Source: Flavobacteriales bacterium (GTDB taxonomy: Bacteria; Bacteroidota; Bacteroidia; Flavobacteriales_G; JALEGO01). Taken from it: a stretch of DNA of 40,118 bases. A model generated the notes under the pieces. That model searched no databases. It saw only the letters and a program-made list of their open reading frames with translations, and was not told where the DNA came from. Made by a program: the position numbers and the translations under genes. Each line of letters starts with the position of its first letter. Within the stretch, counting starts at the first letter, position 1. Location: the NCBI GenBank assembly GCA_020629755.1, contig JAHDCS010000017.1, forward strand, positions 1-40,118. The letters run 5' to 3'. Below are positions 4,236-23,668 of the stretch, piece after piece.

Positions 4236-4593
4236 CTTAGAAACTGTTTAAGTTTTAGTCGTAAAAATAATTATAGAGTTCTTTTCAAAACCTCAGATTT
4301 TTGTTCCTATTAAGGCGTTTTTTTGACAAAATACCACAGCATACTAGTGTATGTGAGGATTTTTGGATAAAAAACAACGAAAATAGGGGCAAAAAGAGGA
4401 GATAAGTATTCCTAAAAGCGGAATAAAATTTTGAATTTTAGTTTTAAAAAGAACTCTTTTAGTAAAGACTTTTTCTCTTAGTCGATAAATTTTAGAATGA
4501 TAATAGCAGCGCTACTTGAATGAAAAAATTTGATGACTAACAAAAAGGGATTCATAAGAATTTTTTCTGAATAAAATTTAAACAGTTTCTTAG
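4236..4593. mobile_element. MITE-like inverted-repeat element, copy 1 (long form, nested)
   Basis: This fills most of the 415-base gap between recO and rocD, which has no gene. The ends are 25-base inverted repeats with three mismatches; the core is GAAACTGTTTAA at the left and TTAAACAGTTTC at the right. Both ends carry CTTAG on the same strand (4236-4240 and 4589-4593), as in the second copy, which lies in the opposite orientation. CTTAG is therefore best read as target sequence, with TTA duplicated between flanking C and G. It has no coding capacity, so it must have moved with a transposase supplied elsewhere. The TNA-type target fits IS5-family elements, but that assignment is inference. 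It differs from copy 2 mainly by a 183-base internal insert. Confidence 0.85.
4275..4457. mobile_element. Second inverted-repeat element nested inside MITE copy 1
   Basis: This segment is absent from the otherwise matching MITE at 22286-22457. It is bounded by its own 17-base inverted repeats with a single mismatch: AGAGTTCTTTTCAAAAC at the left and GTTTTAAAAAGAACTCT at the right. It contains no open frame of note and one small hairpin, CATAC-TAGT-GTATG, near 4340. The simplest reading is that a different short element inserted into the first one. The alternative, that the long form is ancestral and copy 2 lost the segment, does not explain the private terminal repeats. Confidence 0.7.
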
Positions 4594-22285: not shown

Positions 22286-22457
22286 CTTAGAAACTGTTTA
22301 AATTTTATTCTGAAAAAATCCTTATGAATCCTTTTTTGTTATTCATCAAATTTTTTCATTCAAGTAGCGCTGCTATTATCATTCTAAAATTTATCGACTA
22401 ACAGAAAAAGTCTTTAGTATAACTATTTTTACGACTAAAACTTAAATAGTTTCTTAG
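22286..22457. mobile_element. MITE-like inverted-repeat element, copy 2 (short form)
   Basis: This is the reverse-complement counterpart of the element at 4236-4593 without its nested 183-base insert. The ends are GAAACTGTTTAA and an imperfect TTAAATAGTTTC, with CTTAG on the same strand at both outer edges (22286-22290 and 22453-22457). The shared internal block includes TAGCAGCGCTACTTG in copy 1 and its complement here, and is nearly identical over about 100 bases, so the two insertions are fairly recent. It has no coding capacity. Its right end overlaps the last codons and stop of the GH113-like gene. Confidence 0.85.
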
Positions 22458-23481
22458 AAAACAGAGAAAAATATCTGGTAATTACTTTTTCTGAGGGTTT
22501 ATTCTGAGGTGTATAGGCGTAATCTTGAGCTCCGCCCGTGTGTTGATGGTCGTACTTCCATTCCCATATGAATCCGCCTTTGAACCATGATTTATAAAAA
22601 AAAGAGTCAAAAATAGCTTTAAAAGCAATCGCTTGGCCTTTAAGGTTGACTTTTTTTGAATAGGTATCGCTCCATGTGTTAACTGTCACAAAGTCTCTAG
22701 AACAATAGCCAAACTCTGTAAACAAAATTTGTTTTGAATAACGCTTCGAAATATTTTCAATGGCAAATACATGCTTACGCCATTTGTTGAGCAAGTTGTC
22801 TTCTGTGGGTGTCTTTTCTTTGGAAAGTGGAAAATAGGCATCTATACCAATGAAATCTAACTCTGACCAAAATGGAACCATATAGTAATCGTCCCAGTTA
22901 GAGGCGTAAGTGAGTTTACCTGAATACACCTTTCGTATTTGCGCAATCAGATGGTTAAAAAAAGGAGCTCTTTTCTTTATAGACTCTCTTAATTCAGTTG
23001 CAAAACAAAATACATCTACATTTTCTTGCTCAGCTATCTGAGCCATTTCAAGTACATATTTTGAAAAATTCTCTTGCCACTCTTGCCAATCTCTTTCGTG
23101 TTTAAGAGCGAAGTGTCCCACGTAATAGCTTTCAGGGATCCAAAGCTGGGGTTTGAGCATGACTTTAAATCCGTTTTTTTTAGCTTCTCTAATTTGTCGA
23201 GCAACGCCTTTATGGGTTTCTCCCCACCATTGCCCTGGTAAATCATATGTAATACTAGAACCGTTTTTCTCTGCCAATGCATAAGGGACAATACTTACAA
23301 AATTTGCGTTTACATTTTTTACACCTTGAAAATCTAAATATGCAGAATCTCTAGGCGCTTCAAGGTGTAATCCACAAATTTTTTGCGCTTGAATTGTGAG
23401 ATAAAAACATCCCCCCACAAATAACACGACACTCAAAAGCAAATACGCTATGACCCCTTTGCAAGACATATGATGATTCAA
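22435..23481 (-). CDS. GH113-like glycoside hydrolase, membrane-anchored or exported
   Basis: A TIM-barrel enzyme resembling GH113 (beta-1,4-mannanase-type). The 348-residue product begins with a hydrophobic segment at 9-31 (signal peptide or anchor). The barrel includes KVMLKPQLWIP, the probable acid/base Glu E163 in FCFATELRES, FIGIDAYFPLS, the probable nucleophile E256 in ILFTEFGY, and GGFIWEWKYDH near the end. Catalytic roles are assigned by analogy. Start: ATG 23481, with ATG 23469 as an alternative. The last seven codons (SKKLFKF) and the stop fall inside the end of MITE copy 2, so the insertion replaced the original C terminus, after the catalytic core. An octamer GGGGGGAT lies in the signal region. 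Confidence 0.8.
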   Translation of the reverse strand: MNHHMSCKGVIAYLLLSVVLFVGGCFYLTIQAQKICGLHLEAPRDSAYLDFQGVKNVNANFVSIVPYALAEKNGSSITYDLPGQWWGETHKGVARQIREAKKNGFKVMLKPQLWIPESYYVGHFALKHERDWQEWQENFSKYVLEMAQIAEQENVDVFCFATELRESIKKRAPFFNHLIAQIRKVYSGKLTYASNWDDYYMVPFWSELDFIGIDAYFPLSKEKTPTEDNLLNKWRKHVFAIENISKRYSKQILFTEFGYCSRDFVTVNTWSDTYSKKVNLKGQAIAFKAIFDSFFYKSWFKGGFIWEWKYDHQHTGGAQDYAYTPQNKPSEKVITRYFSLFSKKLFKF

Positions 23482-23528: not shown

Positions 23529-23536
23529 TACATTTG
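23529..23536 (+). promoter_or_regulatory. ffs: Candidate -7 box for the SRP RNA
   Basis: TACATTTG matches the Bacteroidota -7 consensus TAnnTTTG and ends four bases before the predicted 5' end of the SRP RNA, as expected for a start site just downstream. Confidence 0.55.
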
Positions 23537-23540
23537 GTCC

Positions 23541-23640
23541 TGGGCAAGTCCTGTACGACCAGCTCCTGCTGAACTCCCCCAGGACGGGAACGTAGCAAGG
23601 GTAGGTGGTTGTAGCGGTGCGATGCAGATCGCTTGCCCAT
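23541..23640 (+). ncRNA. ffs: Signal recognition particle RNA (4.5S, small bacterial type)
   Basis: This is an RNA of about 100 bases that binds Ffh and FtsY for co-translational membrane targeting. The ends pair as TGGGCAAG (23541-23548) with CTTGCCCA (23632-23639), giving the long hairpin. The apical Ffh-binding region is recognisable: CCAGGACGGGAAC followed by GTAGCA, equivalent to the AGG-x-GGAA-x-AGCA core of E. coli 4.5S RNA, with symmetric and asymmetric loops in the right places. A T run follows at 23640. The G+C content is clearly higher than the flanks, as expected for a structured RNA. It sits between the divergent GH113-like gene and a lipoprotein gene on the same strand. Confidence 0.93.
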
Positions 23641-23668
23641 TTTTATTTATTTAACAAAACACAACACA

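Follow-up and report, generated by a model that had tools for sequence, protein, structure and literature searches.

The window analysed here is a stretch of 40,118 nucleotides, contig C34 of the Flavobacteriales draft genome G000 (the host genome; 2.36 Mb, 92 contigs, estimated completeness 98%). It contains two related segments in opposite orientation, at 4236-4593 and 22286-22457, the first of which is longer by an internal portion. This raises the question of whether the longer segment arose by insertion of one mobile element into another, or whether the shorter one lost a portion by deletion. A preliminary description of the window had regarded the shared parts as reverse complements, and this was confirmed: once the inner element had been removed together with one of the two 5-bp target site duplications (TSDs) that flank it, 156 of 164 positions (95%) were identical between the two outer copies. 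The features of both loci are as follows.

4237-4239, no strand: left TSD of outer copy 1, TTA.
4240-4589, plus strand: outer MITE copy 1, 350 bp, ends GAAACTGTTTA..., split by the inner element.
4240-4257, plus strand: left terminal repeat of outer copy 1, GAAACTGTTTAAGTTTTA.
4271-4275, no strand: left TSD of the inner element, TTATA.
4276-4456, plus strand: inner MITE, 181 bp, ends GAGTTCTTTTCAAAAC.
4457-4461, no strand: right TSD of the inner element, TTTTA, one substitution compared with TTATA.
4572-4589, minus strand: right terminal repeat of outer copy 1, GAAACTGTTTAAATTTTA in minus-strand reading.
4590-4592, no strand: right TSD of outer copy 1, TTA.
22287-22289, no strand: left TSD of outer copy 2, TTA.
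22290-22453, minus strand: outer MITE copy 2, 164 bp, unsplit, inverted relative to copy 1.
22454-22456, no strand: right TSD of outer copy 2, TTA.

Outer copy 1 is located between rocD and recO. A glycosidase-like ORF on the minus strand (22435-23481) takes its final codons and its stop from the right end of outer copy 2 (22435-22457), and a Bacteroidales small SRP RNA gene (RF04183, 109.9 bits) is found nearby on the plus strand at 23535-23642.

The outer and the inner element belong to two unrelated non-autonomous MITE families. When the host genome was searched with the sequence 4236-4593, query positions 1-39 and 195-358, from the outer element, matched other places than positions 40-222, from the inner one, and both families were dispersed and multi-copy. 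The outer end pattern yielded 42 genome matches, compared with 5 for its reversed control, and the inner end pattern yielded 54, compared with 2; therefore, neither pattern can be attributed to chance. Perfect terminal inverted repeats of 12-18 bp were present in five of the eight host copies of the outer family, and the same 18 bp formed imperfect repeats in the remaining copies. The preliminary description had assigned 183 extra bases with private 17-base inverted repeats to the long copy; the extra segment and its inverted repeats are real, but the true size is 186 bases (181 + 5) and the repeats comprise 16 bp with one mismatch. The 3-bp flanks, read directly, were equal in all ten two-ended outer copies (TTA or TAA in nine, ATA in one). 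Most inner copies carried 5-bp duplications, with the identical flanks TTCCC, AGAAA, TCTAA, TTAAA, AGTTA and TAGAA, and a shortened inner copy was flanked by TAAAA repeats. Both elements folded far more stably than shuffled sequences (z of -4.9 for the outer and -8.3 for the inner element), and neither the 164-bp nor the 181-bp element contained an ORF of at least 80 amino acids. An inner subfamily with a different middle (GGGCAAGCGCAAGCTTGAGCCAGCATGTGGGAAGATG) was observed at C12:4665, C52:29160, C21:2617 and C23:9596 of the host genome.

The long copy had been interpreted as the result of one non-autonomous element jumping into another, with inner copies outside the outer element and empty outer copies as the proof, whereas an inner segment confined to the outer element would have favoured a deletion in copy 2. 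Both kinds of copies were found in the same genome: solitary inner elements with 5-bp duplications of their own lie at many sites, and unsplit outer copies read TTATA where copy 1 holds the inner element. Furthermore, the lengths of the outer element, the inner element and the inner TSD add up exactly (164 + 181 + 5 = 350 bp). The TSD of the inner element in the window is imperfect (TTATA versus TTTTA, one substitution). If, alternatively, the long copy were ancestral, copy 2 would have lost 183 bases by deletion and the inner part would not be an independent element, a scenario with which the otherwise high identity of the two copies would agree. However, the inner segment is absent from all other full-length outer copies, and the long copy has the extra 5 bp predicted by insertion. 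Because the split copy carries this additional duplication and independent copies of the inner element exist, a deletion in copy 2 was rejected as exceedingly improbable.

Nesting was also found in the reverse order. An outer copy lies within a remnant of an inner element at C2:15836-16065, and an inner copy at C79 has an outer end inside. As outer elements also sit inside inner copies, the activities of the two families overlapped. The genome thus provides a clean example of two MITE families that inserted into each other. Another dispersed repeat, of a third kind and about 300 bp long, was noticed inside an inner copy at C87:11394-11697 of the host genome, and also near the ends of C49 and C2; the C87 repeat has ends near GAAGTTACCCCG and CGGGGTAACTCC, and the inner sequence ATTAAGGCGTTTT is repeated on both sides of it.

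Both outer copies of the window are bordered by CTTAG on either side, and the whole word had been taken for the target, with TTA being duplicated. The duplication of TTA was verified, but the G and C that adjoin it are the first and the last base of the outer element. The left CTTAG is thus composed of a target C, the TTA duplication and the G of the element, and the right one of the C of the element, TTA and a target G. In the copies at C33, C2 and C90 the outer C or G is broken, while the 3-bp flanks are still equal and the inner G and C are kept. Because the outer C and G vary and the 3-bp flanks and the inner G and C are constant, we conclude that the duplication consists of TTA only, within a loose target of the form Y-TWA-R. 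A 5-bp duplication of CTTAG was rejected on the same grounds.

A search for insertion sequences (ISs) with matching ends, which the preliminary description had recommended for naming the transposase donor, was successful for the outer family, which it linked to the IS5 family, but not for the inner family. In G045, a genome of the same class, the outer end recurs at contig edges with 24-25 identical bases, flanked by TAA. This outer-type end lies directly behind a reading frame ending in ...RTFSWFENQRRLSKDFEYLLETSEAMIHFAAIKILLNKI that matches PF13586, the C-terminus of a transposase, and a family search of G045 again located PF13586 matches next to these ends. At the opposite end of the IS in G045 lies the start of the gene, MYETSLTDAQWKI. 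Numerous proteins with the annotation IS5 family transposase match the G045 transposase peptide, and the best of these matches is encoded on the Bacteroides fragilis plasmid CP103159.1. There, the IS copy reads GAAACTGTTTTGA...TCAAAACAGCTTC between two TTA flanks, and its gene is annotated as IS5 family transposase. Like the outer family, this IS has ends GAAACTGTTT... and TTA on both sides; unlike the outer MITE, it is autonomous, has a size of about 0.9 kb, and its ends depart from those of the MITE beyond base 10. A 3-bp TNA duplication is typical of the IS1031 group. Because its ends are common to ISs with an IS5-type transposase and TTA or TAA is duplicated, the outer element is, judged by sequence, classified as an IS5-family MITE. 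G045 also harbours MITEs of its own, 160-215 bp long with the ends GAGACTGTTTAAATTTCA and GAAACTGTTTAAAATTTA, beside related IS5 insertion sequences.

In the host assembly itself, a search with PF13586 gave no match, a result read from a draft of 92 contigs, from which multi-copy ISs can drop out. A search of the same assembly with PF01609 retrieved only a C-terminal fragment of an IS4-like transposase at a contig edge (C24:9-152). This fragment was rejected as a donor, as it is a PF01609 C-terminus and the DNA that follows it has neither set of ends. Viral contigs searched with the outer end gave no match. For the inner family, no transposase with matching ends was detected in the host assembly, nor did a donor emerge from the genome collection or from 394 further genomes of the class. 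The exact 17-base inner end occurred once in these 394 genomes, and a 24-base inner-end pattern matched only Actinomarina and Proteiniphilum records in the genome collection, the Proteiniphilum match looking like chance. A 5-kb segment on C3 with both types of ends around it was considered as a composite; unequal flanks at 58750 and 63848 led to the rejection of this reading.

In addition to complete copies, the host genome contains very short remnants of both families. A 17-bp sequence from the outer family, GAAACTGTTTAAGTTTC, stands alone at four sites, between equal 3-bp flanks at C54, C10 and C12 and between unequal flanks at C36. For the inner family, a 19-bp sequence, GAGGTTTTGAAAAGAACTC, stands alone between equal 5-bp flanks at C6 (TTATA), C67 (TAATA) and C84 (TTTTA), and a 23-bp version lies between TTAAA repeats at C46. 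The chance of equal 5-bp flanks is about 0.0015 per site, under an assumed G+C content of 35%. The recurrence of the same short sequences at different sites, with intact duplications around each, could mean that the 17-bp and 19-bp sequences are tiny elements that transpose themselves. We regard this as improbable: each scar is shorter than two full ends, both are as expected if deletion had taken place between the repeats that lie at the base of the hairpin, AGTTT in the outer family and CTC in the inner one, and longer deletion derivatives exist at C68, at C32 and, with 39 bp, at C68 of the sister species G001. Most likely, judging from these sequences, the scars are products of deletion between the short repeats near the hairpin base. 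Nearly precise excision of inverted-repeat transposons of the Tn10 type is a feature of large transposons of enteric bacteria. Like the process proposed here, it would leave short remnants between intact TSDs via repeats at the base; in the present case, it is deduced from sequence, for two MITE families.

The eight host copies of the outer family and three copies from G001 fold into one long hairpin. In an alignment of these 11 sequences, 97.5% of the cells paired, and 15 of 55 pairs had changed on both sides. This number was reached in none of 500 shuffles, and slid controls had 1-5 such pairs, although the comparison with slid versions is biased in favour of the consensus structure, which was derived from the same 11 sequences. 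Moreover, the G001 copy at C33:136709-136868 carries a 29-bp inverted repeat without a mismatch, in a sequence (GAAATAGCTTAGGGTTTTTTG...) that departs from the canonical end. The flanks of this copy are unequal (TAA and TTA).

Pairing that is conserved between two species in spite of these two-sided changes, together with the perfect repeat of changed sequence in one G001 copy, would also be expected if the outer family were kept as a functional hairpin of RNA or DNA, e.g. a terminator or a small RNA, with mobility being secondary. Several observations speak against this. Outer copies lie between genes in every orientation, divergent pairs included, and the lack of a bias to convergent genes argues against a dedicated terminator role. 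The Rfam search found nothing at the elements. G-U (G-T) pairs were not significantly commoner than A-C mismatches (11 versus 7 columns, p = 0.48), and selection at the RNA level is thus unsupported. Lastly, empty sites and scars indicate that the copies are dispensable. A functional hairpin as the primary role of the family therefore appears rather unlikely. A slightly better, but still low, probability is given to the view that the family is held by selection for the hairpin and not for transposase-binding ends, the arms in G001 having been rewritten together with pairing kept, as might be the case for a structured RNA of domesticated MITE origin, or if one arm were systematically repaired with the other as template. 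Either a match of both ends to a transposase or arm-from-arm repair would suffice to explain the paired changes. In G007, from another family of the order, a 162-bp hairpin at C344:7311-7472 matches the outer covariance model with 42.6 bits; its apical TAATAGCAT.GCTA is common to the outer family, its ends differ, and its homology is uncertain.

Taken together, we consider it very probable that an IS5-type outer MITE inserted into this genome, that an inner MITE later entered copy 1, and that hairpins were frequently lost. The outer element is a non-autonomous derivative of an IS5-family IS with GAAACTGTTTA ends that duplicates TTA or TAA, as its ends and the related ISs show, and was presumably mobilised by an IS5 transposase. 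It inserted between rocD and recO and, in a separate event, at 22289. The unrelated, 5-bp-duplicating element with GAGTTCTTTTCAAAAC ends then entered the TTATA of copy 1, as the TSDs and the unsplit copies show. Many copies most likely lost their hairpin via deletion between short repeats at its base, which would have generated the 17-bp and 19-bp scars. In G001, rocD and recO are a few tens of bases apart and no element lies between them, so that site 1 is either empty or has been emptied in this species. G001 has its own outer copies, which are about 73% identical to those of the host, and the inner element was not found in its genome. At site 2, the neighbouring glycosidase-like gene is also missing at the corresponding place in G001; therefore, this site is uninformative as an empty site.

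For both families, empty sites, filled sites and apparent scars are all readable, so that insertion and loss can be traced family by family. What goes beyond the routine is limited to the scars and to the paired changes in the arms. If the latter represent a real constraint, they would offer a test of whether hairpins of bacterial MITEs are selected or whether their palindromy is kept by template-switch repair.

Neither family is described in the retrieved papers on bacterial MITEs. The two are a new pair of families; both nested bacterial MITEs and IS5-family MITEs of Bacteroidota were already known. In Porphyromonas gingivalis, IS5-family MITEs include MITE464/MITEPgRS, with ends GAGACTGTTGCA as in ISPg4, and BrickBuilt (PMC4596501). 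Like the outer family, these are short, gene-less and multi-copy elements of a Bacteroidota genome with ends that match the IS5 family (PMC4596501). In contrast, the outer family has its own end (GAAACTGTTTAA) and internal sequence, forms a long hairpin, lacks a minisatellite, and has no parent IS detected in the host assembly. In Streptococcus pneumoniae, nested clusters of BOX, RUP and SPRITE elements likewise consist of small, mutually unrelated non-autonomous elements, one within another (review PMC10969869). The families differ from those described here, in which each of the two inserts into the other and the TSDs can be read.
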